DNA from: Candidatus Cloacimonadota bacterium
GTDB lineage: Bacteria; Cloacimonadota; Cloacimonadia; JGIOTU-2
Assembly: GCA_030613025.1 (NCBI GenBank)
Contig: JAUWMT010000027.1
Coordinates: 1-38,241, forward strand
DNA length: 38,241 nt
Direction of reading: 5' to 3'
Shown: one piece after another, positions 5,613 to 23,345 of the stretch
Layout of the letters: each line of letters begins with the position of its first letter
Position numbering within the stretch: position 1 is the first letter of the stretch
The notes under the pieces: generated by a model
What the model was told of the DNA's origin: nothing
The model's database searches: none
What the model saw: the letters and a program-made list of their open reading frames with translations, nothing else
Program-made: the position numbers and the translations under genes

Positions 5613-5625
5613 GCAGAAAGATGAT

Positions 5626-6867
5626 ATGAAAATAGTATTTCACGGTGTTAAAGGTGCGGGCGTTCTTGATTATGTGACAGCTTGGTATATTAAAGCTGCT
5701 AAATATATACAAAATACAAGAATAAAAGTTGCTTTCGTATCAACGAACTCAATTGCACAGGGAGAACAAACGGGAATTTTATGGAATGAGCTTTTTGATA
5801 TCTACAATATTCATATACATTTTGCTCATAGAACCTTTAAGTGGACTAATGAAGCGAGGGGAAAAGCAGCAGTACATGTTGTTATAATAGGATTTGCGAA
5901 CTTTGATACAAATGATAAGAGAATATTTGAATATGAAGATATTAAAGGTGAATCACACGAGATAAAGGCAAAAAATATTAATCCCTATTTAATGGATGCT
6001 CCAAATGTTGCAATCACAAAAAGAAGGAATCCGATTTGTGACATTCCGCATATAAGTTTTGGGAGTATGCCAAACGATGGGGGAAATTTCCTGTTTTCTG
6101 ATGAAGAAAAAGAGAGATTTATAAAAAATGAACCGGAAGCAAGGCAGTACTTCCGTCCATTGCTTAGTGCATATCAATTTTTGAATGGTGAGAAACGATG
6201 GTGTTTGTGGCTAAAGGGTATATCATCAAAAGAGTTAAGAAATTTACCATTGGTTAAAGAGAGAGTTGAAAGAGTAAAAGAGTTAAGAGCAAAAAGTAAG
6301 AGAAAAACGACAAGAGAATTAGCGGAAACACCAACAGAATTTGGTGAAGAGAGACAACCCAAAGAAAAATTTATATTGATACCTTTAACATCATCAGAAC
6401 ACAGGAAATATATTCCAATGGGAATTTTCACACCAAATTATATTATAAATAATACATGCTCTACAATAAGCAGTATTTCTTGGTATCATTTTGGTGTGCT
6501 GCAATCCATAATGCACATGACATGGGTAAACTTTGTATGCGGGAGATTAGAAGGTAGGTATAGATATTCAAATGAAATAGTTTATAATAATTTTCTATGG
6601 CCGGAAAAACCTATTGAGAAGAATGCAAAAAAAGTTAGTGAAAAAGCGGAGCTTGTTATAAAAATACGAGAAGAATATCCGGATTGCAGTTTAGCAGATT
6701 TATATAATCCGATCGCGATGCCCGGACCACTCGTAAAAGCACATAGGGAACTTGATAAAGCCGTTGATCTATGTTACAGACCACAGCCATTTAAGGATGA
6801 AACAGGGAGAATTGAATATTTATTTAGTCTATATAATAAAATGGTAAATCCACTAAAGGTGGAATGA
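5626..6867 (+). CDS. MmeI-like enzyme, C-terminal part (methylase end and target recognition)
   Basis: The 413-residue continuation begins just after the NPPF motif. It includes the remaining methylase core (GAGVLDYVTAWYIKAAKYI, VAFVSTNSIAQGEQ, HFAHRTFKWTNEA), then a target-recognition region (about residues 120-330) and the C-terminal helical segment with NNFLWPE and YNPIAMPGPLVKAHRELDKAVD, all typical of MmeI-family enzymes. The ATG at 5626 has no good ribosome binding site, supporting the view that this is the second half of one gene. The stop lies 16 bases before the next gene, which has a strong Shine-Dalgarno, so the four downstream-directed frames look like one transcription unit. Confidence 0.82.
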   Translation: MKIVFHGVKGAGVLDYVTAWYIKAAKYIQNTRIKVAFVSTNSIAQGEQTGILWNELFDIYNIHIHFAHRTFKWTNEARGKAAVHVVIIGFANFDTNDKRIFEYEDIKGESHEIKAKNINPYLMDAPNVAITKRRNPICDIPHISFGSMPNDGGNFLFSDEEKERFIKNEPEARQYFRPLLSAYQFLNGEKRWCLWLKGISSKELRNLPLVKERVERVKELRAKSKRKTTRELAETPTEFGEERQPKEKFILIPLTSSEHRKYIPMGIFTPNYIINNTCSTISSISWYHFGVLQSIMHMTWVNFVCGRLEGRYRYSNEIVYNNFLWPEKPIEKNAKKVSEKAELVIKIREEYPDCSLADLYNPIAMPGPLVKAHRELDKAVDLCYRPQPFKDETGRIEYLFSLYNKMVNPLKVE

Positions 6868-6883: not shown

Positions 6884-7453
6884 ATGGATAATGCTATTTG
6901 TCCTGTATGCAAATTACCAAACATAAAAGTCCAAGATATATGGAATAATGATACTAAAAAATATTATTGTAAACAATGTGGAGAATTCAAAATTTCTGAA
7001 ACTGCTGATATCATGCTATCTTCAAAGAAAGCTGACCCTAAATTATCGTTTGCTTTGAGAACTCTATTTGATAAAGGGGAAAAGAAAGTAATAACATCAA
7101 CAAACATAGATGAAATAAAAAATAGTGTTAAATATCCAAAGACATTACAAGAAAGAGTGGATTTAATTTTATTGTATCTGTATGGTCATCCTACTGAAGA
7201 ATCAAGAGGTTTTGATATATCACTTGGAAATATTTATAGGTTTGGAATTGAGGATAGAAACATAATGAGAAGAATATTGGATTATGCAGAAGAAAAAAAT
7301 CTTATTACGATTAAACCAAGATTTGCAGATGGAAGTGGTATTGTAAAGTTAAGTGCTAATGGTTATGATAGAGCAGAATCACTGTTAAATAAAAAAAACT
7401 TATGGAGGAAGATATGCTTGATAGTAAAGAATATTATAAAAAATGTTTCTTAG
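6884..7453 (+). CDS. Zinc-ribbon protein, probable winged-helix C-terminus, defence-associated
   Basis: A 189-residue protein with a four-cysteine zinc ribbon: CPVC (Cys6, Cys9) and CKQC (Cys29, Cys32), then ISETADIMLSS. Residues 90-170 look helical and winged-helix-like (LILLYLYG, IYRFGIEDRNIMRRILDYAEEKNLI, then a strand pair and VKLSANGYDRAESLL). I do not recognise a named family. AGGAGG sits 6 bases before the ATG. It follows the MmeI-like gene by 16 bases and overlaps the TIR gene by 40 bases in another frame, so it is probably a partner, sensor or regulator of the TIR protein. Near its 3' end is A-AAA-AAC (7393-7399), in the correct phase for a -1 ribosomal slip into the TIR frame. Confidence 0.6.
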   Translation: MDNAICPVCKLPNIKVQDIWNNDTKKYYCKQCGEFKISETADIMLSSKKADPKLSFALRTLFDKGEKKVITSTNIDEIKNSVKYPKTLQERVDLILLYLYGHPTEESRGFDISLGNIYRFGIEDRNIMRRILDYAEEKNLITIKPRFADGSGIVKLSANGYDRAESLLNKKNLWRKICLIVKNIIKNVS

Positions 7454-7860
7454 TTCATGGGCATAATGAAGAGATAAAATATGAAGTTGCAAGATTTATT
7501 GAAAAAGAATTAAATATTAATGTAATAATTCTACATGAAAAAGCCAGTAAAAGTAGGACTATTATTGAAAAAATTGAAGCACACTCTGAAGTTGATTTTG
7601 CTGTATGTCTATACACTGCAGATGATTTGGGCTGTGAAAAAAAGGAAGAAATTGAATTAAAAGATTTATCATATCGTGCAAGGCAAAATGTTATATTCGA
7701 AGCAGGTTATTTTATGGGGAAACTAGGAAGAAATAAAGTTTTTATATTGCTTGAAGATACTCTAGAAAAACCTGCAGATATTGATGGGGTAATATATATC
7801 CCTATTAAAGGGGAGTGGAAAGAAGATTTGAGGAGAGAAGTAAATGAAATATACAAGTAA
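7414..7860 (+). CDS. TIR-like nucleotide-binding protein (CAP12/PCTIR type), probable NADase effector
   Basis: A 148-residue protein of the TIR-like family known from CBASS/Pycsar-type defence. Landmarks: FLVHGHNEEIK (residues 12-22), ILHEKASKSRTIIEKIE, DFAVCLYTADDLG, RARQNVIFEAGYFMGKLGR with the candidate catalytic Glu96 after NVIF, and DIDGVIYIPIKGEWK at the end. Relatives cleave NAD+ when activated. The frame is open to an ATG at 7402, but GGAGGA (7404-7409) lies directly downstream of it, so ATG 7414 is the likely start. There is no cyclase, oligomerising sensor or transmembrane domain on the chain, so activation must come from a partner, most simply the zinc-ribbon protein or the small protein that follows. 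Confidence 0.8.
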   Translation: MLDSKEYYKKCFLVHGHNEEIKYEVARFIEKELNINVIILHEKASKSRTIIEKIEAHSEVDFAVCLYTADDLGCEKKEEIELKDLSYRARQNVIFEAGYFMGKLGRNKVFILLEDTLEKPADIDGVIYIPIKGEWKEDLRREVNEIYK

Positions 7861-8131: not shown

Positions 8132-8168
8132 CTATTACAATAAAAAATACAATATACAGTTGATGTAA

Positions 8169-8844
8169 GATCATGAAAAATAAATATTCCGAAACCATGG
8201 AAAAGAAAACCGATGAAAGCAAAGACTAAATGAACCGTTCGATACTTGAATCGCAGTGAGTGAAACGACCCTGTGAAATAAAAAAACAGATTTCACGGGT
8301 TAAAAGTGTGATTCGAGGATTATGGCTGATAAAAATAAGATGTTTATGTTTAATCATTCTCGCTTCATGCTTCGCCACGAAGCAAGTCTGACAATGCAGA
8401 TTTAATTCCCCACTTCACCAATTTCTTGACATCTAAATATGATTCTCTTCACACAATACGTAGATAAAAGATCATGAAAAATGAATGCTGTGAAACCATG
8501 GAAAAGAAAACTTATGAAAGCAAAAACGGAATGAACCGTTCTATACTTGAATCGCAGCGAGTGAAACGACCCTGTGAAATAAAAAAACAGATTTCACGGG
8601 TTAAAAGTGTGATTCGAGGATTATGGCTAATAAAAATGAGATGTTTATGTTTCATCATTCTCGCTTCATGCTTCGCCACGAAGCAAGTCTGACAATGCAG
8701 ATTTAATTCCCCACTTCACCAATTTCTTGACAGCTAAATATAATTCTCTTCACACAATACGTAGATAAAAGATCGTGAAAAATGAATGCTCTGAAAACAT
8801 GGAAAAGAAAACTTATGAAAGCAAAAACGGAATGAACCGTTCGG
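8169..8844 (+). repeat. 301-bp tandem direct repeat, two copies plus a partial third
   Basis: Units start at 8169, 8470 and 8771, each beginning GATC(A/G)TGAAAAAT, exactly 301 bases apart. The first two are nearly identical over their full length; the third is recognisable only to about 8844, where the AllH-like coding sequence takes over. Each unit contains CCACTTCACCAATTTCTTGACA near its end and a short frame starting with Met-Lys-Asn. The third unit supplies the start codon and about 23 residues of the AllH-like protein. The interval 8132-8774 holds no other gene I can support. Confidence 0.85.
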
Positions 8845-9707
8845 GAAAATTGGACCCATACGACCACCAGATCGAGCTGGTCAGTTTCGGTGATAGAATT
8901 CCAAACGGCACTTTTACGATCCATTCAATATTTCGAAGAACTGTAAATTTTCACAACAACTCTGTGCTGATCTCAATTGTGAACGAAGATATCGGCAGCG
9001 GACCTCTAAATATAATTGTAAGAGGACTCGATCTTCAAAAAATACATTCCCTCTCAATCTACAACAATATCCTGACGATCAATAACATACAAATTCTCAT
9101 TAATGAAATCGTGAAGTATAGTTCAAGATTATCTCCGAAAGCAGTTAGTATTTCCAAATTTACTGATAATCTGGCATTTTTGCAAACTGTTCTAACCAAA
9201 TTGAGTGCTCCAAAAAGTCTCTACTTTCTTTTAGATGAAAAGAGAGAAAAGGACTTCATATCGGGCTTTGAAAAGGAATTTGCCAAAAGGATGAAGTTGG
9301 GCGTCGATTTGATATTTAATGGCACGATGGCGAGCTTGGTTGAAGGAGTTTCAAAGATCAAGGGGTGCGGATTCGGGCTCACTCCGAGTGGAGATGACTT
9401 TAATGCCGGTTTGCTGTCAGGTCTCTATCTGAAGCAGGAATTATTCGGAAATGATCTATCTGAAATCAGGAATACGATCTATAAAACTGCGCAGGGCAAC
9501 AATCTGATCTCAAATACATATCTCTATCTCGCAAAAGAGGGGCTGTTTATCGAGAGGTTCAAAAACTTTATCAATTCCCTTTTATATGAAGGGAAGGAAG
9601 AGATACATTCAAATATCCAAAAAATGCTAAATGTTGGAGAAACTTCGGGCGCCGATATGCTTGTGGGTTTCATTTTATCATTTAAGAAAGCGGGTGAGCT
9701 GTGGTAG
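8775..9707 (+). CDS. allH: AllH-like (DUF2877) subunit of oxamate carbamoyltransferase
   Basis: A 310-residue protein with the DUF2877 signature GFGLTPSGDDFNAGLLSGLYL in its second half and an N-terminal HSIFRRTVNF segment typical of the family. In E. coli this family (AllH, formerly YlbF) is one of three subunits of oxamate carbamoyltransferase, acting on oxalurate, oxamate and carbamoyl phosphate in allantoin breakdown. The other two subunits follow directly. The GTG at 8775 and first roughly 23 residues lie in the third copy of a 301-bp tandem repeat; an in-frame ATG at 8832 could be the ancestral start. Its end overlaps fdrA by 7 bases. Confidence 0.82.
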   Translation: MKNECSENMEKKTYESKNGMNRSGKLDPYDHQIELVSFGDRIPNGTFTIHSIFRRTVNFHNNSVLISIVNEDIGSGPLNIIVRGLDLQKIHSLSIYNNILTINNIQILINEIVKYSSRLSPKAVSISKFTDNLAFLQTVLTKLSAPKSLYFLLDEKREKDFISGFEKEFAKRMKLGVDLIFNGTMASLVEGVSKIKGCGFGLTPSGDDFNAGLLSGLYLKQELFGNDLSEIRNTIYKTAQGNNLISNTYLYLAKEGLFIERFKNFINSLLYEGKEEIHSNIQKMLNVGETSGADMLVGFILSFKKAGELW

Positions 9708-11305
9708 TGAAAGGTAAAATAAAACGAGGGGAATATTTTGATTCTGTTACTCTGATGCTCGTTGCGAAACAGATCAATGGGATCGAAGGAATTGCAGATG
9801 CTGCAGTTGTGATGAATACTGAAGAGAACAGATCGATACTGGAATTTTCGGGATTGCTTATTTCCGATTTTGATGAAGCGAAAGCATCCGATCTTTTGAT
9901 ATGCCTGAAAGCAGAAAGTGAAGAGGTCGCAGAAAAAGCAATGCTGCAAGTTGATGAAGTTCTTGAGAAAGTCCGGCACGCGATCAGCGACACTGAGGAT
10001 TTTCTTCCCAAAAGTCTGGAAACTGCACTATGTGCAATGCCGGATGCAAACCTGGCGCTCATTTCCGTTGCCGGCAAGTATGCAGCCAATGAAGCGATGA
10101 AAGCTCTGAAGTTAGGACTTCACGTTATGATCTTTTCGGATAATGTTCCGATTGAAGATGAGATCTGGTTGAAGAAATTTGCGCAGGAAAAAGACCTTCT
10201 TTTGATGGGACCTGATTGCGGGACCGCGATAATAAATGGCGTTCCACTTGCTTTTGCGAATGTAGTGAACAAAGGAAATATCGGCATGGTGGCAGCTTCG
10301 GGAACTGGGTTGCAGGAGATCAGCTCGATCATATCCAACAATGGAGCAGGAATTTCTCAGGCGATCGGAACAGGAGGAAGAGATGTGAAGAAAGAGATCG
10401 GCGGGATCATGTTCCTTGCAGCTCTCGAAGCATTGAACCGTGATAAAAACACAGAAATAATTGTGCTTGTATCCAAGCCACCAGCAAAAGAAGTACTCAA
10501 GAAAATATTGGAAAAAGTAGAAAATATTCATAAGCCGGTTATTACAATATTTCTCGGCGCTGATGAAAAATTATTTGAAGGTTCAAGGGCAATACCAGCA
10601 AAAACCCTCGAGGAAGCTGCACTTATTGCGGTTAGTTTAGCACAGAAGAAGGATATAAATTCATTTCAAGAAATGTTTGAGAAAAGATATAAGGGAGTAA
10701 AAGAAATTGCTCAAAAAGAAGCAAAGACAAAGATCAGGGAGCAGAAATACCTTCGCGGACTTTTTTGCGGAGGCACTCTTTGTGAGGAAGCCCTGATCAT
10801 CTTTAAGGAACAGATAGGGGATGTGTATAGCAACATGTCATCAAAAGAAAAATTTCAATTGAAAGATTCGATGACAAGTTACATGAATACGGTCATCGAT
10901 ATGGGCGGAGATGAATTCACAGTGGGCAGACCGCATCCTATGATAGATTTTTCTTTGCGGAATAGAAGGATATTGAAAGAAGCAGAAGATCCGGAAGTTG
11001 CAGTCATACTTTTTGATGTGGTGCTTGGCTATGGATCGAATATGGAACCGGCACAAGAGCTTGTTCCGGTCATCATGCAAGCTGCAAAATCTGCAGTAAA
11101 AACAGGAAGAGATATTTCTTTTGTGTGCTCAATAACCGGTACAGTTCATGATCCTCAAGATAGGAAAGATGTGGAAAAAAGATTGAAAGAAGCCGGAGTT
11201 CATGTAATGGAATCAAATGCTGCTGCATGTGAGTTATCCGGTTTGGTCATCAAAATGCTTTCGGATGAAAGCTCAAAAATGGAGGATCGTCATGGCAATA
11301 AATGA
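9701..11305 (+). CDS. fdrA: FdrA/AllF subunit of oxamate carbamoyltransferase (acyl-CoA synthetase-like fold)
   Basis: A 534-residue protein related to the succinyl-CoA synthetase alpha subunit. A Rossmann region includes LISVAGKYAANEAMKAL (about residues 120-136), followed by GPDCGTAIINGVPLAFAN (170-187), GNIGMVAASGTGLQE and GTGGRDVKKEIGG (223 onward). The C-terminal half has CGGTLCEEAL, GRPHPMID and the ligase-like VLGYGSNMEPAQELVP. In E. coli FdrA (AllF) is a subunit of the oxamate carbamoyltransferase. The gene starts at GTG 9701 (GTG 9707 is an alternative), overlapping allH by 7 bases, and its end overlaps allG by 14 bases. Confidence 0.88.
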   Translation: MVVKGKIKRGEYFDSVTLMLVAKQINGIEGIADAAVVMNTEENRSILEFSGLLISDFDEAKASDLLICLKAESEEVAEKAMLQVDEVLEKVRHAISDTEDFLPKSLETALCAMPDANLALISVAGKYAANEAMKALKLGLHVMIFSDNVPIEDEIWLKKFAQEKDLLLMGPDCGTAIINGVPLAFANVVNKGNIGMVAASGTGLQEISSIISNNGAGISQAIGTGGRDVKKEIGGIMFLAALEALNRDKNTEIIVLVSKPPAKEVLKKILEKVENIHKPVITIFLGADEKLFEGSRAIPAKTLEEAALIAVSLAQKKDINSFQEMFEKRYKGVKEIAQKEAKTKIREQKYLRGLFCGGTLCEEALIIFKEQIGDVYSNMSSKEKFQLKDSMTSYMNTVIDMGGDEFTVGRPHPMIDFSLRNRRILKEAEDPEVAVILFDVVLGYGSNMEPAQELVPVIMQAAKSAVKTGRDISFVCSITGTVHDPQDRKDVEKRLKEAGVHVMESNAAACELSGLVIKMLSDESSKMEDRHGNK

Positions 11306-12719
11306 CCTCTTTGATAAAGATCTAAAAGTAATAAACATCGGACTCGGCTCTTTCAAAGATAGTTTGGAAGAAGTTAATGCCGGTGTTGTGCAGGTTGATT
11401 GGAAACCCCCTGCAGAAATCGATGAAAAAACTCTTAATATTATTTCGGATAATAGCTCATATATTGAGAAAGAGAATAAAAAATGCCTTAATAAAACCCT
11501 GAGCGGAACTCCTTTTCTAATCGATTTGGATAGAGCAATTAATGTGATACCGGGTATGAAAAAGAACATGATACTTCATGCGGGACCACCAATAACCTGG
11601 GACAGAATGTGCGGACCAATGAGAGGAGCGATCATCGGCGCCCTGATTTACGAAGGAATGGCTGAAAATCCCGAAGAAGCAGAGAAAATTGCAGCTTCCA
11701 ATGAAATTGAATATTCACCCTGCCACGAGCATAGTACAGTCGGACCGATGGCTGGTATTGTGTCATCCTCGATGCCGGTTTTTGTTCTGAAAAATGAAGA
11801 GTATGGAAATCATGCATACTGCACGCTGAACGAAGGACTCGGCAAGGTGCTTCGTTACGGCGCTTTCAGCAAAGAAGTGATCGAAAAACTGAGATGGATG
11901 GAAGCGGTTCTGTATCCTGCGTTGAAAAAAGCAGTGAGAGAACTTGGCAAGATCGATCTGAAAAACATCATTGCTCAAGCTCTGCACATGGGAGATGAAG
12001 TTCATAACAGAAATCGAGCTGCGACCTCCCTGTTTTACCGACAGATCGCGCCGGCTATAATAAAAACGACAAAAGATACAGAGATCGCTGTCAAAGTGCT
12101 CGAATTCATCAACGGCAATGATCATTTTTTCCTAAATCTATCTATGCCTGCCTGCAAAGTAACGCTCGATGCAGCCCGAAATATCAAGGGAAGCAGTGTT
12201 GTCGTGGCAATGACGCGCAATGGAACAGATTTTGGCATACAACTTTCAGGAACAGGTGATCAGTGGTTTGTCGGACCTGCACCAATTCCAGATGCGCTTT
12301 TCTTCCCGGGATATACAAAAAATGATGCAAACAGGGATATCGGAGATAGCTCCATCACGGAAACGAATGGACTTGGCGGATTTGCAATTGCAGCATCACC
12401 GGCAATCGTTCAGTTCGTTGGCGGAGCAGCACAAGATGCCCTGAATTATACTCAGGAAATGTATGAGATCACTGTTGGTGAGAATAATATCTATCAAATC
12501 CCTTCTCTGAATTTCCGCGGAACTCCAACAGGGATCGATGTTATAAAAGTAGTAGAAAAAGGGATATTACCTTTTATCGATACAGGTGTAGCTCATAAAA
12601 ATGCGGGAATCGGACAGGTCGGCGCCGGAGTGTTGAGCGCTCCAATGGAACCATTCACAAAAGCGTTGAAAGGTTTAGCTGAATCATTAGAAAATAAAGA
12701 TACTAATAAAAAAATGTAA
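11292..12719 (+). CDS. allG: YlbE/AllG-like (DUF1116) subunit of oxamate carbamoyltransferase
   Basis: A 475-residue DUF1116/YlbE-family protein, the third member of the trio. Recognisable stretches are HAGPPITWDRMCGPMRGAII, CHEHSTVGPMAGIVSSSMPV, GNDHFFLNLSMPACKVTLDA and VGAGVLSAPMEPF near the end. The frame is open upstream to 11217, but ATG 11292 with GGAGG 6 bases before it is the clear start and gives a family-typical N-terminus. It overlaps fdrA by 14 bases and is followed after 8 bases by the cyclase-family gene, so all four are co-transcribed. Confidence 0.87.
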   Translation: MAINDLFDKDLKVINIGLGSFKDSLEEVNAGVVQVDWKPPAEIDEKTLNIISDNSSYIEKENKKCLNKTLSGTPFLIDLDRAINVIPGMKKNMILHAGPPITWDRMCGPMRGAIIGALIYEGMAENPEEAEKIAASNEIEYSPCHEHSTVGPMAGIVSSSMPVFVLKNEEYGNHAYCTLNEGLGKVLRYGAFSKEVIEKLRWMEAVLYPALKKAVRELGKIDLKNIIAQALHMGDEVHNRNRAATSLFYRQIAPAIIKTTKDTEIAVKVLEFINGNDHFFLNLSMPACKVTLDAARNIKGSSVVVAMTRNGTDFGIQLSGTGDQWFVGPAPIPDALFFPGYTKNDANRDIGDSSITETNGLGGFAIAASPAIVQFVGGAAQDALNYTQEMYEITVGENNIYQIPSLNFRGTPTGIDVIKVVEKGILPFIDTGVAHKNAGIGQVGAGVLSAPMEPFTKALKGLAESLENKDTNKKM

Positions 12720-12727
12720 GGAGTATC

Positions 12728-13546
12728 ATGAATAATAACGAATTTCTGGAATTTATGGATAAGGTGCGAGTGTATGATCTGACACAGCGACTGAGCATTC
12801 ATACACCGCCGTGGCCCAGTTATATGCCGTTGCAGATCCAATATTTTAAAAGACTTGCCGGCGCTCATATGGGTCAAGGGGCGAACGGACAGATCATCAA
12901 AACAAGTAATCATGTAGGAACTCATATTGATGGGCAAATTCATTTCTTTGCCAGCGGTAAAACTATCGGCGAAGTTCCTATTAAAGATTGGATCGGACAG
13001 GGAGTTGTGGTTGATATTTCCGATGAAGTGGAAGATTACTCGCTCTATTCACCGGAAATGCTGATGAAAAAAGCTGAGATCAAAAATGGGGATATTCTCA
13101 TTATCAATACAGGGTATCATAAATATAGCTGGGATCAACCGGAATCTGATGAAGTTCGCTATTTCGTAAAGCATCCAGGTCCTGATCCTGAATTCCACAA
13201 ATGGGCTCTTGAGATGAAATTTAAATGGATCGGTGTTGATTGCGGAAGCGCAGACCATCCAATGAACACGATCATCAGAGACTGGCATCCGAAACCCTTC
13301 ATTGAAGCTGAGAAAAAACTGAAAGCAAAATATCACAAAACCTGGGACGAGATGTTCCCGCTCGAAGAATACTACCAGGTTATGCATTTGAATCTTTTTC
13401 CCAAAGGACTGCTTCATGCAGAAAACCTGGGTGGTGAACTGAATAAAGTAAATAATAAACGTGTTTGGATCGGGTTGTTTCCCTTGCGCGGTATTGAATT
13501 GGAATCATCCATGTGCCGTATAATTGCTCTTGAACCACCGGAATAG
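12728..13546 (+). CDS. Cyclase-family metal-dependent hydrolase
   Basis: A 272-residue member of the cyclase/kynurenine formamidase-like family (PF04199 type) of metal-dependent amide or lactam hydrolases. The metal motif HVGTHIDGQIHF (residues 62-73) supplies His62, His66, Asp68 and His72; a later VDCGSADHPMN holds further active-site residues. Relatives open rings (isatin hydrolase) or cleave N-formyl groups. It starts 8 bases after allG with AAGGAG before the ATG. In this operon a ring-opening or amide-hydrolysis step upstream of oxalurate is the natural guess; the substrate is not determined. Confidence 0.82.
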   Translation: MNNNEFLEFMDKVRVYDLTQRLSIHTPPWPSYMPLQIQYFKRLAGAHMGQGANGQIIKTSNHVGTHIDGQIHFFASGKTIGEVPIKDWIGQGVVVDISDEVEDYSLYSPEMLMKKAEIKNGDILIINTGYHKYSWDQPESDEVRYFVKHPGPDPEFHKWALEMKFKWIGVDCGSADHPMNTIIRDWHPKPFIEAEKKLKAKYHKTWDEMFPLEEYYQVMHLNLFPKGLLHAENLGGELNKVNNKRVWIGLFPLRGIELESSMCRIIALEPPE

Positions 13547-13558
13547 AGAAGAAGTTTA

Positions 13559-13592
13559 ACCACGAAACACACGAAAGACGCGAAAAAAGAAA
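13559..13592 (+). repeat. CACGAAA-type dispersed repeat
   Basis: Reads CCACGAAACACACGAAAGAC followed by GCGAAAAAAG. It lies in the gap between the cyclase-family gene and the methyltransferase gene, and is the same family as 480-514 and 37749-37790. Confidence 0.55.
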
Positions 13593-13638
13593 AAAACTAT
13601 ATAAAAAGTGTTTTAACACTTCATGTTAAGCAAATCGA

Positions 13639-14622
13639 ATGGATCTAAATAAAGCAGAAATACAACTCCTATACTTGATCAATATGGTTGAAAGATCAGT
13701 AAGAAAGGTTAATAAAAAAACTATTAACACAACCGGGAAGAAAGTCTATGATGAGAACTTATTAGAATTATCAGAAGCTTACAAATCACTTATCAAAAAT
13801 GAGTTTGTTGAGGAAGTCAATAAGGAATATTCTTTAACAAATAAAGCTAAGAAATATCTTAAAAGAATAAGAGCCAATAATTTTGGAGAGTTGTTAGTTA
13901 AAATAGAAAAAAGTGAAGTGTATGGAAAATTCTGTGAGCTGGTGTATGGAAAAAATATTACTCAATTCAATATGATGAATATGCATCAACTTAACAAATT
14001 ACTGGAATTAATGAAGTTAAACCGACATCATAGAGTTTTGGATTTAGGCTGTTCATCGGGAACAATTACTGAGTATATTTCTGATTTAACAAACGCACAC
14101 ATCACAGGTATCGATTTCGCAGAAAAAGCAATAGAATGGGCTGAAGAGAGAACAAAATCTAAAAAAGACCGTTTGAAATTCATAACAATGGATATTGATA
14201 CAATTGATTTTCCTGAAAAATCTTTCGATACGATCATCTCAATTGATACACTTTATTTTATGGAAGATTTAAAAGATACTGTTCTACAAATGAAGGGGCT
14301 TTTAAAACAAAATGGAAAAATGGGAATCTTTTATACACAGATGATAAAGCCCGATGATTCTCAAGAATCATTACTTCCTGATAAAACAAAATTAGCTAAG
14401 ATTTTGAAGGAACAAAATTTAAAATATCAAACCTGGAATTTTACAGAAGAAGAGAAACGTCATTGGAGAAAATCAAAAGAAGTTGCCGAAACGTTAAAAG
14501 AGGAATTTGAAAAAGAAGGTAATATTCAAATTTATTTATCCAGAATTCGTGAATCAAATAAAATTCTCGAGTTTGTCGAATCAGATCGACTCAGCCGTTA
14601 TCTTTATTTTGTGGAACTTTAA
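13639..14622 (+). CDS. Class I SAM-dependent methyltransferase with N-terminal helical domain
   Basis: A 327-residue protein. Residues 1-100 look like a winged-helix-type domain (IQLLYLINMV ... ELSEAYKSLIKNEFVEEV ... YSLTNKAKKYL). The Rossmann methyltransferase domain follows with motif I VLDLGCSSGTITEYI (about 133-147), ITGIDFAEKAIEWAEER, the acidic MDIDTIDF and FDTIISIDTLYFMEDL. The substrate is unknown; small-molecule methyltransferases share this layout. It sits within the catabolic operon but has no ribosome binding site as good as its neighbours', looks more AT-rich, and is preceded by a dispersed repeat, so it may be a later insertion. Alternatively it acts on a pathway intermediate. 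Confidence 0.75.
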   Translation: MDLNKAEIQLLYLINMVERSVRKVNKKTINTTGKKVYDENLLELSEAYKSLIKNEFVEEVNKEYSLTNKAKKYLKRIRANNFGELLVKIEKSEVYGKFCELVYGKNITQFNMMNMHQLNKLLELMKLNRHHRVLDLGCSSGTITEYISDLTNAHITGIDFAEKAIEWAEERTKSKKDRLKFITMDIDTIDFPEKSFDTIISIDTLYFMEDLKDTVLQMKGLLKQNGKMGIFYTQMIKPDDSQESLLPDKTKLAKILKEQNLKYQTWNFTEEEKRHWRKSKEVAETLKEEFEKEGNIQIYLSRIRESNKILEFVESDRLSRYLYFVEL

Positions 14623-14641
14623 TTATGAAAGGAAGTTTTTA

Positions 14642-15511
14642 GTGGTCACAATAAATTTTGAATATTTCAAACCCAAAGATATGATCGAAGCAATAAATCT
14701 TCTTTCAAAATTTGAGAAAAAAGCAAAAATCCTTTCGGGAGGTACTGATCTCATCGTACAGATGAAAGAGAATATCGAAGCACCGGAAGCTGTAATCGAC
14801 ATAAAAGGAATAAAAGATCTGCACGAGATTCTATTTGAAGACAATATACTCTTCATCGGCGCATGCGTAACCTTCTCGGAATTGATCGAATCGGAGATCA
14901 TCAAAAAATATTTTCCTCTAATAAAAGAGATGTCAAAGAAAGTTGCTTCGATAGGAATTCGTAACAGAGCCACTATTGTAGGAAATATCTGCTCGGCTGT
15001 CCCTTCTGCAGATTCTGCCCCGATCCTGCTCGTGTATGATGCTGATATTATTGCGAAAAGTTCTTCTGAAGAAAGGATCATTCCGATTACAGACTGGTTC
15101 ACCGGTCCGAAAGAGACTATTCTGCACGCAGATGAACTCGTTACAGGCATTGCAATTCGGTTCCCGGATAAGAAACATGTAGGATGTTATGAAAAACTTA
15201 GAAGATATTCCGGAGAAGATCTTGCTCAAGCAGGAGTGTGTATTTTGGCATTTGAAGACCTTATTTACAAAGTTGCATTTTGTGCTGTGGGACCAGTTCC
15301 AAAGAGAGCTTTCATTGTCGAAGAACTTCTGAATGACAAAGAAATTTCCGATGATCTAATCGAGGAAGCAAAGCATCTTTTACAGGAAGAGATCTCTCCG
15401 ATTTCGGATATCAGAGCATCAGAAGAATATCGGGTTCATATGATGGGTGTGATGTTCGAAAGAGGATTGAAGAAAGCGATCTCTCAGATTCATGGAGGTG
15501 GAAATGTCTGA
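14642..15511 (+). CDS. Molybdenum hydroxylase (xanthine dehydrogenase family), FAD subunit
   Basis: A 289-residue FAD-binding subunit carrying electrons away from the iron-sulfur subunit. Motifs: AKILSGGTDLIVQMKE (FAD pyrophosphate region), FIGACVTFSELIES, and ASIGIRNRATIVGNICSAVPSAD split between flavin contacts, then KLRRYSGEDLAQAGVC and a CO-dehydrogenase-flavoprotein-like C-terminus. The frame is open back to 14507 across the previous gene's end, but GTG 14642 with GGAAG 6 bases upstream gives the usual length for this subunit. It overlaps the iron-sulfur subunit gene by 8 bases. Confidence 0.88.
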   Translation: MVTINFEYFKPKDMIEAINLLSKFEKKAKILSGGTDLIVQMKENIEAPEAVIDIKGIKDLHEILFEDNILFIGACVTFSELIESEIIKKYFPLIKEMSKKVASIGIRNRATIVGNICSAVPSADSAPILLVYDADIIAKSSSEERIIPITDWFTGPKETILHADELVTGIAIRFPDKKHVGCYEKLRRYSGEDLAQAGVCILAFEDLIYKVAFCAVGPVPKRAFIVEELLNDKEISDDLIEEAKHLLQEEISPISDIRASEEYRVHMMGVMFERGLKKAISQIHGGGNV

Positions 15512-16007
15512 AATGCATTTTATGCTGAATCATGAAAATAGAGCTGTTAATGTAGAGCCGAACGAAACTCTCCTTGAAGTATTGCGTGAAAAATTAGGTG
15601 TGAAAAGTCCGAAATGCGGTTGTGATAGAGGAGACTGCGGCGCTTGCAATGTCCTCCTGAATGGACAGAGTGTCAGAAGCTGCCTTATCCTTGCTGTCGA
15701 GGTTGATGGACAGGAAATTATCACAATTGAAGGAATTTCTAAGCACGGCTTGACCAAAGTTCAGAAAGCAATGATAGATAATAATGCTTTCCAGTGCGGA
15801 TTCTGTGCACCAGGTATCATAATTTCTGCTACGGAATTGCTGAATAAAAATCAACATCCGACCCTCCAAGAGATCAAAGAAGCACTTGCAGGAAATTTAT
15901 GCCGCTGTACCGGATACTTGCCGATCCTTGAAGCTGTGTTAAAAGTTTCAAAAGAAGAGGTTCACGCGGAGAACGCAGAGAAGACGCGGAGAACGCAAAG
16001 GAAATAA
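15504..16007 (+). CDS. Molybdenum hydroxylase, [2Fe-2S] subunit
   Basis: A 167-residue electron-transfer subunit with two [2Fe-2S] clusters. The plant-type cluster uses CDRGDCGAC (Cys40, Cys45, Cys48) and Cys60; the second uses CGFC (Cys98, Cys101) and CRC (Cys133, Cys135) in NLCRCTGYLPI. The start is ATG 15504 because GGAGGTGG (15494-15501) lies just before it, inside a longer open frame from 15492. The last 15 residues (153-167, VHAENAEKTRRTQRK) are encoded by one arm of a TTCACGC/GCGTGAA inverted repeat element, so this tail is an acquisition rather than family sequence. Confidence 0.9.
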   Translation: MSEMHFMLNHENRAVNVEPNETLLEVLREKLGVKSPKCGCDRGDCGACNVLLNGQSVRSCLILAVEVDGQEIITIEGISKHGLTKVQKAMIDNNAFQCGFCAPGIIISATELLNKNQHPTLQEIKEALAGNLCRCTGYLPILEAVLKVSKEEVHAENAEKTRRTQRK

Positions 16008-16144
16008 AATTGTTGAAAAATAAGAATTTTCAAGGTGAAGGTCGTTTTGAAGTGAAAAATATACAAAGTGAATATCATATTAAAGAGAATTTTTGTAAAA
16101 TATCTCTGCGAGCTTTGCGTAAACTCAGCGCACTCAGCGTGAAA
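15961..16144. repeat. Inverted-repeat element (TTCACGC...GCGTGAA) in the molybdenum hydroxylase operon
   Basis: The left arm begins TTCACGCGGAGAACGCAGAG (15961 onward); the right arm ends CAGCGCACTCAGCGTGAA (to about 16143), and their outer ends are reverse complements. About 110 AT-rich bases lie between the arms. It resembles small non-coding mobile elements common in environmental genomes. It splits the [2Fe-2S] and molybdopterin subunit genes and supplies the stop codon of the former. Confidence 0.6.
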
Positions 16145-16158
16145 AAATGGAGTGACTA

Positions 16159-18504
16159 ATGGATAATTTAAAATATGTTGGAAAATCAGTTGTCAGAATT
16201 GATGGAAAAGAAAAAGTAAGCGGTGCAACTCGTTTTACCGATGATCTCGAATACGGACCGAATATGCATTATGCTGCTCTTGTGGAAAGCACGGAATCTC
16301 ACGCTATTATCAAAAACATAGATACTTCCGAAGCAGAAAAATATCCGGGCGTGATCGCTGTGTTTGCAGGTAGGGATTTTCCCTATAAATTCGGACTCTA
16401 TATGAAGGACAGGTATATCTTTGCTATGGATAAAGTCCGATTTGTTGGTGAACAGATCGCAGCAGTTGTTTCCCGCGATAAGAGAATTGCAGAACGAGCA
16501 GCAAAACTGGTAAAGGTAGAGTACGAGCCGCTGCCAGCAATTTTTGATCAGATGGAATCGCTCAAAGAGGATGCCTTTCTCATTCATCCCGACCTTGGTA
16601 ACTATATCCATGTTCCCTGGTTTTTCCCCAAAGCAAAGACCAATATTGCCCATTGGCGTAAGACCAGAAGAGGTGATGTGGAAAAGGGCTTTGCAGAAGC
16701 GGATTATATTCTTGAAGACATTTACCGTGTTCCCCGATATGCACATTGTCCGATTGAAACTCACGCTGCAGTAGGTTTGTGCGATCTGTCCGGCAGATTG
16801 ACGGTCTGGGCTTCATCGCAATCACCCCATACGCAAAGAAATTTATTTGTAGAAGCCCTTGCTCCGCTTGGTTTTACTCATAAAGATGTTCGTGTGATAG
16901 CTCCTCCGATCGGTGGGGGATTCGGTGGGAAAGCCGGAGTCTCGATGGAAATCCTCGCTGCTGCAATGGCAACCAAGCTGAAAGGAAACCCCGTGCAGGT
17001 TATCTGGTCACGCGAGAAAGAATTTTATAATACTTCACAACGGCTCGGTGTCATAGCCAAATTGAAGATCGGTGTGAAAAAGGACGGCACTTTCACAGCA
17101 ATCGATCACCGTCTGTACTGGGATGCGGGAGCTTCTGCAGAATACGGAGCAAATGTAGTCAATGCCATCGGATTATCAGCGACCGGACCATACCGCTTCC
17201 CAAATATTCTCATAGATTCGGTTTGCTTGTACACGAATCTTCCTCCATGCGGAGCGTATCGCGGATTTGGATATTCGGAATTCATGTTCGGATTGGAGTC
17301 ACATATAGACAGAATTGCTTCTCATCTCAAGCTGGATCCTGTCGCACTCAGGAGAAAAAACGCGATCAAAGAAGGAGATATACTGGCTTATGGTGTGCCC
17401 ATGAATCCAAGCGGATTGTTGCAAGCTATTGATGCGGTTGCAAAGGAGATCAAGTGGGGGGAAAAGGTGAAATCCGATGATCCGAATAAAGTTATTGGAA
17501 AGGGATTTTCTCTGCTCTGGAAAGCTCCTGCCATGCCGCCCAATGCATCTTCTGCCGCATTCATCAAATTCAGTGAGGATGGAAGTATAAACATTCTGGT
17601 TTCGGGCATGGATATGGGACAGGGATTTCTTACAGTCATGGCTCAGATAGCTGCTGAGATACTCACTGTTCCGGTTTCCAAGATAAGGACGGAAAACCCG
17701 GATACTGATAGGAATCCGTACGAATGGCAGACTGTCGCATCCCACGTAACCTGGTCATGCGGAAATGCAGTGAGGAATGCAGCTCTGGACGCACGGGATC
17801 AGATATTTGATGTCGTTTCCCGAACCTTTGACCATCCAAAAGAGATGCTGTTTTTAGAAGATGAAAAAGTCAAATGCAAAACTAAAAAAAGCTTCGAACT
17901 TCCACTCAAGGATTTTGTTATTAACGGCATTCAGGCAGATGACGGCACGTTCAAGGGCGGACCAATTCTCGGCAGAGGGATTTTCATGCCCGAGTTCACC
18001 TCTGCGAATAGTGATCCCGAAACAAGCCAGGGCGGACATCCAAATGTGCATTACACAGTTGGTGCAGCAGCGATAATTCTTGAAGTCGATAAAGAAACAG
18101 GTAAGATGCATGTCAAAAAAGTGGCGGAAGCGATCGATGCAGGCAAAGCGATAAATCCTGATCTTGTCAACGGGCAGATAACCGGCGGTTTGCTGCAGGG
18201 ACTTTCCACAGTGCTTTATGAAGATATGAGATATGATGAAAAAGGAAAACTTTTGAATCCGAATTTCACTGATTATAAAATTCCGACTTCAAAGGATGTT
18301 CCTGATGAGATCGTACCAATTATTATTGAAGTACCTCAGCCGGACGGACCCTTTGGCGCACGCGGCGTAGGCGAGCACACGATGATACCAGCAGCGCCGA
18401 TGGTCGCAAATGCAGTTCAGGATGCGCTTGGAATAAGGATCAAAACTATGCCGATCACTGCGGAAAAAGTGGCGATGGCAAACTTAAAGAAAAAGGAGAA
18501 ATAG
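16159..18504 (+). CDS. Molybdenum hydroxylase, molybdopterin-binding catalytic subunit
   Basis: A 781-residue large subunit of the xanthine dehydrogenase/CO dehydrogenase family, which hydroxylates N-heterocycles or aldehydes with oxygen from water. Visible: the N-terminal hammerhead domain (VVRIDGKEKVSGATRFTDD), the GGGFGGK loop (252-258), AYRGFG (366-371), GMDMGQGFLTVMAQIAAE and the PFGARGVGEHTMIPAAPM segment with the base Glu739. Its AYRGFG sequence does not match the AYXSFR loop of CO dehydrogenases, arguing against CO as substrate. GGAG precedes the ATG. The CoA-transferase gene begins at the next base after the stop. Substrate assignment to a purine-like ring rests on context only. Confidence 0.88.
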   Translation: MDNLKYVGKSVVRIDGKEKVSGATRFTDDLEYGPNMHYAALVESTESHAIIKNIDTSEAEKYPGVIAVFAGRDFPYKFGLYMKDRYIFAMDKVRFVGEQIAAVVSRDKRIAERAAKLVKVEYEPLPAIFDQMESLKEDAFLIHPDLGNYIHVPWFFPKAKTNIAHWRKTRRGDVEKGFAEADYILEDIYRVPRYAHCPIETHAAVGLCDLSGRLTVWASSQSPHTQRNLFVEALAPLGFTHKDVRVIAPPIGGGFGGKAGVSMEILAAAMATKLKGNPVQVIWSREKEFYNTSQRLGVIAKLKIGVKKDGTFTAIDHRLYWDAGASAEYGANVVNAIGLSATGPYRFPNILIDSVCLYTNLPPCGAYRGFGYSEFMFGLESHIDRIASHLKLDPVALRRKNAIKEGDILAYGVPMNPSGLLQAIDAVAKEIKWGEKVKSDDPNKVIGKGFSLLWKAPAMPPNASSAAFIKFSEDGSINILVSGMDMGQGFLTVMAQIAAEILTVPVSKIRTENPDTDRNPYEWQTVASHVTWSCGNAVRNAALDARDQIFDVVSRTFDHPKEMLFLEDEKVKCKTKKSFELPLKDFVINGIQADDGTFKGGPILGRGIFMPEFTSANSDPETSQGGHPNVHYTVGAAAIILEVDKETGKMHVKKVAEAIDAGKAINPDLVNGQITGGLLQGLSTVLYEDMRYDEKGKLLNPNFTDYKIPTSKDVPDEIVPIIIEVPQPDGPFGARGVGEHTMIPAAPMVANAVQDALGIRIKTMPITAEKVAMANLKKKEK

Positions 18505-19695
18505 ATGGCTAAACCATTAGAAGGTGTTAAAGTTCTTGATCTCACCCGTGTTCTTGCGGGTCCTTATTGCACGCTAATTTTATGTGATCTCGGAGCTGAA
18601 GTTGTAAAGGTTGAAATCCCCCAAAGTGGTGATGATGCCAGGCATTACGGTCCTTTCAAAAACAAGCAAAGTCTATATTTTTTGAGTTTGAACAGAGCAA
18701 AGAAAAGTATTACTTTGAATCTTAAAACTGAAGAAGGAAAAGCAATTTTGAAAGATCTGGTCAAAGATTTTGATGTCCTTGTAGAAAATTTTCGCCCCGG
18801 AACCATGGAAAAATTGGGTTTGGGTTATGATATATTGGAGAAAATCAATCCAAAATTGATCTATGCAGCTTGTTCCGGTTTTGGACATACAGGACCGGAT
18901 TCCAAAAAACCGTCTTATGATCTTCTTGCTCAGGCAAGAGGAGGAATTATGAGCATTACTGGCTGGCCTGATAGTCTTCCAACACGAGTGGGCATATCGA
19001 TCGGTGACATTACAGCGGGATTATTCACAGCAATTGGGATAAGTTCTGCTCTCTATCAAAGAGAAAAAACAGGGAAAGGACAAATGATCGATGTGGCTAT
19101 GCTGGATTGTCAGGTTGCAATTTTGGAAAATGCACTTGCTCGTTTTCAAGTGGAAGGCAGATCGCCCACACCGATCGGCAATCGTCATCCCACGGTCAGT
19201 CCCTTCCAGGTATTCATGGCAAAAGATGACTACTTCGTACTTCCTATTGGGAACGACAAACTCTGGATGAAATTTTGTAATGCAATTGGTAAAGAAGAAT
19301 GGATCAAGGATAGTAAATTTGCTACAAATAAAGCTAGAAATAATAATCTGGAAATCCTGATACCATTGCTTGAAGAACTTTTCTTAACCAAAAAAGCTTC
19401 AGAGTGGATTGAACTTATAGAAGAAGGGGGAATCCCCTGTGGTCCGATCAATACAATTGAAAAAGTTATGAATGATAAGCAGGTTCATGCGAGAAATATG
19501 ATCGTTGAAGTGGAAGATGAAAAAGCCGGAACTATCAAAATTGCAGGCAATCCTATAAAGATGACGTCGATTCCTGAAGAGAGAAAACGCAAACCTGCGC
19601 CAAAACTCGGTATGCATACAAAAGATGTGCTTGTAAAGTACCTCGGTTTTGATGAGAATAAGATAAAACAATTGAAAGAAGATGGTGTGATTTAA
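18505..19695 (+). CDS. Class III CoA-transferase (CaiB/BaiF family)
   Basis: A 396-residue CoA-transferase. It opens with LEGVKVLDLTRVLAGPYCTLILCDLGAEVVKVE split by the usual small-residue turn, followed by RAKKSITLNLKTEEGK, LVENFRPGTMEKLGLGY and ISIGDITAGLFTAIGISSAL containing the predicted catalytic Asp168. GGIPCGPINTIEKV and LGMHTKDVLVKYLG complete the family pattern. The family includes formyl-CoA:oxalate CoA-transferase; here a role in activating a carboxylate end product such as oxalate is attractive but unproven. AAGGAG is placed just before the ATG, inside the end of the previous gene. Confidence 0.87.
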   Translation: MAKPLEGVKVLDLTRVLAGPYCTLILCDLGAEVVKVEIPQSGDDARHYGPFKNKQSLYFLSLNRAKKSITLNLKTEEGKAILKDLVKDFDVLVENFRPGTMEKLGLGYDILEKINPKLIYAACSGFGHTGPDSKKPSYDLLAQARGGIMSITGWPDSLPTRVGISIGDITAGLFTAIGISSALYQREKTGKGQMIDVAMLDCQVAILENALARFQVEGRSPTPIGNRHPTVSPFQVFMAKDDYFVLPIGNDKLWMKFCNAIGKEEWIKDSKFATNKARNNNLEILIPLLEELFLTKKASEWIELIEEGGIPCGPINTIEKVMNDKQVHARNMIVEVEDEKAGTIKIAGNPIKMTSIPEERKRKPAPKLGMHTKDVLVKYLGFDENKIKQLKEDGVI

Positions 19696-21012
19696 TTGAT
19701 GTTTATTTCTGAATGTTCGTTGTCCAAGATAATCTCCCAGTTACAGAAAATGGAACTAACACCGGAAAATTTAGTTGATGAACTTTGTGACAAAATAGAC
19801 AGATGGGATGCAAATATCCAAGCTTTCATTCCTGAACTCGATAGAAGAGAACGCCTGCATAAAGATGTGAAAGAGTTGTACAAGCAATTTCCAAACCCTG
19901 ATTCAAGACCTGTAATGTTTGGAATTCCTGTTGGAATTAAGGAAATTTTTCATGTCGATGGATTTCCGACAAAAGCCGGTTCAGATCTGCCTTCGGAAGT
20001 TCTCAAAGGAAAAGAGGCAACTGTTGTTTCGAAGTTGAAAAAAGCCGGTGCTTTGATCTTAGGTAAAACCGTTACAACCGAATTTGCATATTTTCATCCC
20101 GGAGCTACCTGTAATCCGAATAATTTTGAACATACTCCAGGCGGATCGAGCAGCGGGTCTGCTGCTGCGGTGGCATCCGGATTTTGCCCTTTGGCATTGG
20201 GTACTCAGACTATTGGTTCTATTTCACGTCCCGCAGCATATTGTGGTGTAATCGGCTTCAAACCAAGTTTTGGTAGGATTCCGACTTCTGGCGTCATCCC
20301 GTTTTCTCCATCGGCTGATCATGTTGGTTTTTTTACTCAGGATATAAAAGGAAGTCAGATAATTTCTTCCGTTTTGTGTGATAACTGGAATGCTGAAGCT
20401 TCGATTTCAGAAAAACTTCCTATATTGGGAATTCCGAGTGGGAACTATCTGAAGCAAGCTTCAATAGATATCTTAATAAGTTTTGATAAAACGATCAATA
20501 AATTAAAAAATGCAGGTTTTCAAGTTAAAACAACATCGGCTTTTACAAATATAGATGAGATCAATTTTCTGCATCGGGAGATGATTTCGTATGAATTTAC
20601 ACAAGTTCATGAAAGCTGGTATAGTTCGTTTAAAACAAAATATAGCCAAGCTTCAATCGATCTTATCAAAAAAGGAAGAGTTGTTTCTCCTGACAAATTT
20701 ATGAAGACAAAAAGCGGAAGAGAAGTACTCCGAAATAAATTAAAAAAGCTGAGCTCTGAAAATGAAATTGATCTCTGGATATCACCTTCTGCCACATCCA
20801 CTGCTCCCAAGGGATTGAAATCTACCGGTGATCCCGCTATGAACTTGCCATGGACTTATGCCGGAGTACCAACTCTGTCTATTCCTTTTGGAATGTTGGA
20901 TGGGATGCCTTACGGAATACAGTTTGCCAGGAACTTTGGAGAAGATGAAAGTTTGTTTTATCTAGTAAATCAGATATTAAAAAAATGTGGAATAAGAAAT
21001 ATTAATTCATAA
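19696..21012 (+). CDS. Amidase-signature hydrolase
   Basis: A 438-residue amidase of the Ser-cisSer-Lys family. The catalytic set is complete: Lys82 in FGIPVGIKEIFHVDG, cis-Ser151 in PGGSSSGSAAAVASG and nucleophile Ser175 in LGTQTIGSISRPAAYCG; the 24-residue spacing between the two serines fits the family. It starts at TTG 19696 or, more likely, the adjacent ATG 19699, immediately after the CoA-transferase stop, and is the last gene of the operon. Candidate substrates are an amide or ureide from the ring-opened compound, or oxamate itself. Confidence 0.87.
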   Translation: MMFISECSLSKIISQLQKMELTPENLVDELCDKIDRWDANIQAFIPELDRRERLHKDVKELYKQFPNPDSRPVMFGIPVGIKEIFHVDGFPTKAGSDLPSEVLKGKEATVVSKLKKAGALILGKTVTTEFAYFHPGATCNPNNFEHTPGGSSSGSAAAVASGFCPLALGTQTIGSISRPAAYCGVIGFKPSFGRIPTSGVIPFSPSADHVGFFTQDIKGSQIISSVLCDNWNAEASISEKLPILGIPSGNYLKQASIDILISFDKTINKLKNAGFQVKTTSAFTNIDEINFLHREMISYEFTQVHESWYSSFKTKYSQASIDLIKKGRVVSPDKFMKTKSGREVLRNKLKKLSSENEIDLWISPSATSTAPKGLKSTGDPAMNLPWTYAGVPTLSIPFGMLDGMPYGIQFARNFGEDESLFYLVNQILKKCGIRNINS

Positions 21013-23280: not shown

Positions 23281-23345
23281 AATTCTTGACAACAATGGAA
23301 GGAAAATTACGAAAATGAGTAAGAAATTGAAATCATGCTGTTTTC
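23281..23345. repeat. hsdR 3' flank, second copy of the 4031-4097 repeat
   Basis: About 90% identical by eye to 4031-4097. It covers the last codons of hsdR (Lys-Thr-Ala-stop, 23333-23344) and about 50 bases beyond. Confidence 0.5.

Follow-up and report, generated by a model that had tools for sequence, protein, structure and literature searches.

We analysed 38,241 nucleotides of a Candidatus Cloacimonadota genome (hereafter the window), in which ten genes on the forward strand, tightly packed or overlapping from 8775 to 21012, bring together the three subunits of an AllFGH-type transcarbamylase, a ring hydrolase of the PF04199 cyclase family, a three-subunit molybdenum (Mo) hydroxylase, a CaiB-type coenzyme A (CoA) transferase and an amidase (Table 1). 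This operon is real, conserved and catabolic, and we propose with moderate confidence that it encodes an anaerobic, oxidative route for uracil that uses AllFGH and is able to conserve energy.

Conservation of the operon

Nine of the ten genes, all but a methyltransferase, are kept in the identical order allH-allF-allG-cyclase-FAD-FeS-Mo-CaiB-amidase at many Cloacimonadota loci, and a profile of the cyclase matched 35 of 125 Cloacimonadota genomes with a clear E-value gap. The shared order in many genomes, together with this recurrence of the cyclase, places the operon far above chance. A first-pass annotation of the same DNA had described a ten-gene operon tying AllFGH to a Mo-hydroxylase, a ring hydrolase, an amidase and a CoA-transferase; all ten genes were confirmed, Pfam and NCBIfam agree on their families, and the conservation it had wished to see was found for nine of them, the methyltransferase not being core. 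The Pfam calls are AllH, CoA_binding/Ligase_CoA (the protein also matched by the NCBIfam model FdrA), AllG, Cyclase, methyltransferase, FAD, [2Fe-2S], MoCoBD, CoA_transf_3 and Amidase, and comparison with E. coli likewise identified AllF, AllG and AllH as three contiguous subunits. The methyltransferase is missing from most relatives' operons, and its synonymous divergence (dS) from the L002 locus is 0.13, against 0.40-0.85 for the remaining operon genes common to L002. We infer that it is a sporadic, recently gained insertion outside the core.

The cyclase/Mo core, whole or partial, also occurs in Elusimicrobia, Verrucomicrobia, Eisenbacteria, KSB1 and Bacteroidota-side records, several of them with AllFGH. 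Within the Bacteroidota-side phylum only 3 of 396 genomes are carriers. One carrier, G001, is a single contig of 2,246,820 bp. Another, G478, has a divergent operon with a Mo subunit at 44% identity; there (L071:11196-12578, L068:582-11403) a dihydropyrimidinase (TIGR02033, 594 bits) is followed by divergent CaiB, Mo-hydroxylase, AllHFG, cyclase and amidase genes.

The proposed uracil route and its alternatives

In the route that we propose, whose substrates, step order and energy yield are deduced from sequence, uracil would enter relatives through a UraA-like permease and, in the window's own genome, which has no such permease, would come from internal nucleic-acid turnover. The Mo-hydroxylase would oxidise uracil at C6 to barbiturate, whose ring the PF04199 hydrolase would open. 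The product, ureidomalonate (N-carbamoylmalonamate), is an N-acylurea, as oxalurate is; AllFGH would then use phosphate to split it into malonamate and carbamoyl phosphate, from which a carbamate kinase encoded elsewhere in the genome could yield ATP, CO2 and ammonia. Finally, the amidase would convert malonamate to malonate and ammonia, and CaiB would convert malonate to malonyl-CoA. A literature search on this proposed oxidative uracil pathway found nothing. If the scheme is true, pyrimidines can be broken down anaerobically with ATP regained by way of carbamoyl phosphate, the role of AllFGH is widened from allantoin to pyrimidines, and the route bears on nucleic-acid turnover in anoxic Cloacimonadota habitats.

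The carbamoyl step is proposed by analogy. E. coli AllFGH converts oxalurate to oxamate and carbamoyl phosphate (PMC11326118), and the likeness of ureidomalonate to oxalurate suggests it as the substrate here. On the plasmids L081 and L082 (Aminobacter, Klebsiella), fdrA, DUF1116, DUF2877 and carbamate kinase genes adjoin ring openers of the cyanuric acid hydrolase type (AtzD family), and DUF1116 matches occur on 193 plasmids; AllFGH may serve as a module for salvaging carbamoyl phosphate after a ring has been opened to an N-acylurea. Profile scans of the window found neither a carbamate kinase nor allantoin genes, in agreement with the first-pass annotation, which had noted the missing kinase and had set the operon apart from the standard allantoin type. 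The kinase gene that it had looked for elsewhere in the genome, and whose absence it would have counted as a refutation, is present, at G000:C35, and 16 of the 22 genomes searched have one above cut-off. Carbamoyltransferases near carbamate kinase were at first taken for YgeW, a reading that was dropped because the models match them as N-acetylornithine carbamoyltransferase-like. The contig of the window's genome that carries the kinase also holds an additional [2Fe-2S] subunit of the xanthine dehydrogenase (XDH) type (L092:1053-1517).

The substrate class was read from the permeases, the amidase and the Mo subunit. Downstream of many orthologous operons lies an NCS2 permease that groups with the uracil clade. 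It is 36-40% identical to UraA or RutG and 24-28% identical to XanQ or UacT, and it carries the pyrimidine-type TTYxEN in transmembrane helix 10. Its scores are 252 bits against UraA and 67 against the uric acid-xanthine permease among solved structures, and 358 bits for the uracil-permease model against 221 for pbuX. High-scoring NCS2 permeases occur in 17 of the 35 cyclase-bearing but only 6 of the 90 other Cloacimonadota genomes (Fisher p 4e-7, uncorrected for relatedness). Because the permease is UraA-like, the nearest match of the amidase is malonamidase E2 and the Mo subunit stays under the XDH cut-offs, the sequences favour a pyrimidine over a purine or hydantoin. If the operon instead served xanthine or urate catabolism, then the Mo enzyme would be a xanthine dehydrogenase, the cyclase would open a purine-derived ring and AllFGH would take off the ureido group. 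The subunits do belong to the XDH family, haloarchaeal cyclase loci have xanthine-type NCS2 genes nearby, and a Peptoclostridium AllHFG-arcC cluster has two annotated xanthine permeases in its vicinity. However, the Mo subunit fails every curated equivalog cut-off (500 of 780 bits and 480 of 916 bits for xanthine dehydrogenase XdhABC/PucABCDE), the permease downstream of the operons is of the pyrimidine type, and all operon rows have Ala at the position that we equate with Glu802 of bovine XDH, where E. coli XdhA has Gln; we regard purine catabolism as very unlikely. Glu802/Arg880 was dropped as a decisive test of xanthine activity, since E. coli XdhA also lacks that Glu.

The lower part of the route was read from the amidase and CaiB. 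Malonamate had been set down as the expected intermediate ahead of any comparison of the amidase with solved structures. The best solved match of the amidase then proved to be malonamidase E2, at 180 bits, with the next molecule at 156; the 46% identical orthologue of G001 also has malonamidase E2 as its best match. The catalytic Lys, Ser and Ser are retained in 25 amidase rows, as is an Arg at the position of Arg158, which in malonamidase E2 binds the malonamate carboxylate. We propose from these comparisons that the operon amidase is a malonamate amidohydrolase. A later paper's account of Shin et al. (2002) has malonamidase E2 (PDB 1ock and others) hydrolysing malonamate (PMC8393822). CaiB retains its GD motif in the Cloacimonadota rows.

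The first-pass annotation had read the operon one carbon shorter: a hydantoin- or purine-derived compound would give oxalurate, AllFGH oxamate and carbamoyl phosphate, the amidase oxalate, and CaiB oxalyl-CoA. The known E. coli reaction is the one this version needs, and the G478 dihydropyrimidinase is in keeping with it. It also keeps its standing because the best solved match of CaiB is YfdE, which we take to be an acetyl-CoA:oxalate CoA-transferase, even though the score for the oxalate CoA-transferase model, 384 bits, falls short of the 522-bit cut-off. The UraA/RutG-like permease, the malonamidase E2-like amidase, the Mo subunit scores and the lack of allantoin genes in the window leave this version less supported, and we consider it unlikely. 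The longer version, through uracil, barbiturate, malonamate, malonate and malonyl-CoA, fits the data better. The same chemistry could be fed by a different cyclic ureide or imide (thymine, orotate-derived or xenobiotic), given that the gene content sets the ring class and not the ring, and that the divergent G478 operon includes its dihydropyrimidinase; the narrow conservation of cyclase and Mo subunit suggests instead a single common natural substrate, which makes such a variant quite unlikely.

The cyclase keeps the metal-site motif HxxxHxDxxxH in A1, G478, L083 and L085, and its dN/dS is 0.02-0.035. At 48 bits it does not reach the 223-bit arylformamidase (KynB) cut-off. No barbiturase (AtzD family, TIGR02714-type) was found in the operon, where the ring opener is PF04199 instead, in a search that did not extend to the genome outside the window. 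An AlphaFold prediction for the cyclase was of low quality (pLDDT 41) and was set aside. Within the plasmid collection the nearest cyclases are on haloarchaeal plasmids (42-48% identity); Mo-hydroxylase genes adjoin them in 5 of the 8 contexts read, and a cytosine deaminase and a cytosine permease lie at one of those loci as well, a setting that we count in favour of a pyrimidine substrate.

Points against the proposed uracil route, and the Mo cofactor

Several observations weigh against the uracil route, above all the fate of the amidase. Six of 14 operon-type genomes have a GNAT-type protein in its place, a swap that finds no explanation in the malonamate scheme; six have the amidase without GNAT, two have neither and none has both (Fisher p 0.01, uncorrected for relatedness). 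Amidase orthologues were called at 1e-30, and the GNAT-bearing genomes give only 34-35% partial matches. The G478 amidase is equally near GatA, a T. thermophilus amidase and malonamidase E2, and the dihydropyrimidinase of that operon is a further difficulty. No NCS2 permease was found in the window's genome, 16 other cyclase-bearing genomes lack one of the uracil clade, and the downstream permease of relatives has Asp in place of UraA His245. Identity between the haloarchaeal Mo-hydroxylase and that of the window is only about 25%, and the NCS2 neighbours at those loci score as xanthine permeases. Carbamate kinase is found in operon-free genomes too, and so is permissive evidence. Lastly, moaA, moaC and moeA were absent from searches of all 35 cyclase-bearing Cloacimonadota genomes (the E cut-off was 1e-6 for moaC and moeA, and for moaA only the stricter 1e-40; controls positive), a negative that covers these three genes and leaves out moaE, moaD, mogA and Mo transporters; 21 of the 35 genomes are listed as 90% complete or better.

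The 231-residue protein was labelled GNAT-like from sequence and is matched by no Pfam model. A thiolase adjoins it at four loci (L002, L003, L022 and L067), three of which (L002, L022 and L067) also have a DUF35-type protein alongside; at L002:12395-14615 and L067:14805-17078 the GNAT-like, thiolase and DUF35-type genes occupy the place of CaiB and the amidase.

The Mo-hydroxylase itself is a complete XO-family set, with FAD, 2x[2Fe-2S] and MoCoBD subunits and Mo-site motifs, of which the Mo subunit retains GGGFGGK, YRGFG, GQG and GVGE. Its dN/dS of 0.03-0.04 indicates strong purifying selection. The moaC-bearing Cloacimonadota genomes have no cyclase, while moaC is present in 7 of the 13 non-Cloacimonadota carriers searched; between 5 moaC-bearing orthologues and 12 from Cloacimonadota, the Mo subunit shows zero fixed differences. 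The operon is thus a clean instance of the orphan-molybdoprotein puzzle, in which one enzyme family is shared by genomes that have moaC and genomes that lack it, with no fixed residue difference between the two. Such proteins have been described as an unresolved puzzle (Peng 2018, PMC6147048), and a literature search on Cloacimonas and molybdopterin found nothing. Import of the cofactor or of an intermediate, a new way of making it, or an enzyme form without Mo may account for the pattern. A bolder reading, which we hold as possible though doubtful, is that in Cloacimonadota an active XO-family hydroxylase, whose cofactor comes from outside the known MoaA/MoaC/MoeA route, carries out the first step of a uracil fermentation that conserves energy.

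Gene models and comparison with known systems

The allH start is probably 8832 and not 8775, because 8775 falls within a 301-bp tandem repeat and the closest orthologues have 291 residues. The repeat (2.2 copies, 8159-8843) covers the first codons of the allH open reading frame (ORF). The allG ORF opens at 11217, with a corrected start near 11292; that of the FAD subunit opens at 14507, and its corrected start near 14642 is a GTG downstream of AGGAAG.

Table 1. Genes of the operon, with corrected starts and assignments from sequence.
Gene or product	Position	Strand	Basis
allH (DUF2877), third subunit of AllFGH-type transcarbamylase	8832..9707	+	Pfam AllH 83 bits; 24% to E. coli AllH
allF/fdrA	9701..11305	+	NCBIfam FdrA 515 bits (cut-off 433); 40% to E. 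coli AllF
allG (DUF1116)	11292..12719	+	Pfam AllG 338 bits; 44% to E. coli AllG; solved relative 3clq
PF04199 cyclase-family metal hydrolase, candidate barbiturate ring opener	12728..13546	+	Pfam Cyclase 118 bits
S-adenosylmethionine-dependent methyltransferase, sporadic insertion outside conserved operon	13639..14622	+	Pfam; mostly missing in relatives
FAD subunit of Mo-hydroxylase	14642..15511	+	Pfam FAD_binding_5 166 bits
[2Fe-2S] subunit of Mo-hydroxylase	15492..16007	+	Pfam Fer2_2 and Fer2
Mo/molybdopterin-binding subunit, candidate uracil to barbiturate hydroxylase	16159..18504	+	Pfam MoCoBD_1 253, MoCoBD_2 230 bits
CaiB/BaiF (type III) CoA-transferase, candidate for malonate to malonyl-CoA	18505..19695	+	Pfam 442 bits
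Amidase-signature hydrolase, candidate malonamate amidohydrolase	19696..21012	+	Best solved match malonamidase E2

Elsewhere in the window, an MmeI-type restriction-modification gene is broken into two ORFs within its methyltransferase domain (4149-6867) and adjoins a gene for a small CAP12/Pycsar-type TIR domain protein (7402-7860). A type I restriction R subunit (23333-26026) has a GIY-YIG domain match (residues 293-364) amid its helicase motifs.

The oxidative uracil pathway runs through uracil/thymine dehydrogenase, barbiturase and ureidomalonase. The operon would share its logic of uracil, barbiturate and ureidomalonate with an oxidoreductase in front, but its ring opener belongs to PF04199 and not to the AtzD/barbiturase family, and phosphorolysis to carbamoyl phosphate is proposed in place of hydrolysis to urea. 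The HxxxHxDxxxH motif is shared with the PF04199 family of KynB and isatin hydrolase. With malonamidase E2 the amidase shares the amidase-signature fold, the Lys-Ser-Ser positions and the Arg at nucleophile +3, differing in that it lies within a catabolic operon and that its activity is a predicted one. The E. coli ygeW-hyuA-xdhD-ssnA region of purine-type genes likewise combines a Mo-hydroxylase, a carbamoyltransferase and a kinase gene, but its YgeW-type carbamoyltransferase and hydantoinase-type ring opener belong to families that the operon lacks. Like the orphan molybdoproteins of PMC6147048, the hydroxylase is an XO-family molybdoprotein without a complete Mo cofactor pathway; here, unlike there, it is embedded in an operon, its purifying selection has been measured and moaC-bearing orthologues can be compared. 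The E. coli oxamic transcarbamylase AllFGH (allFGHK operon; PMC11326118) has the same three contiguous orthologous subunits, whereas the window operon, without allantoin genes or a carbamate kinase, joins them to a Mo-hydroxylase, a cyclase, an amidase and CaiB.

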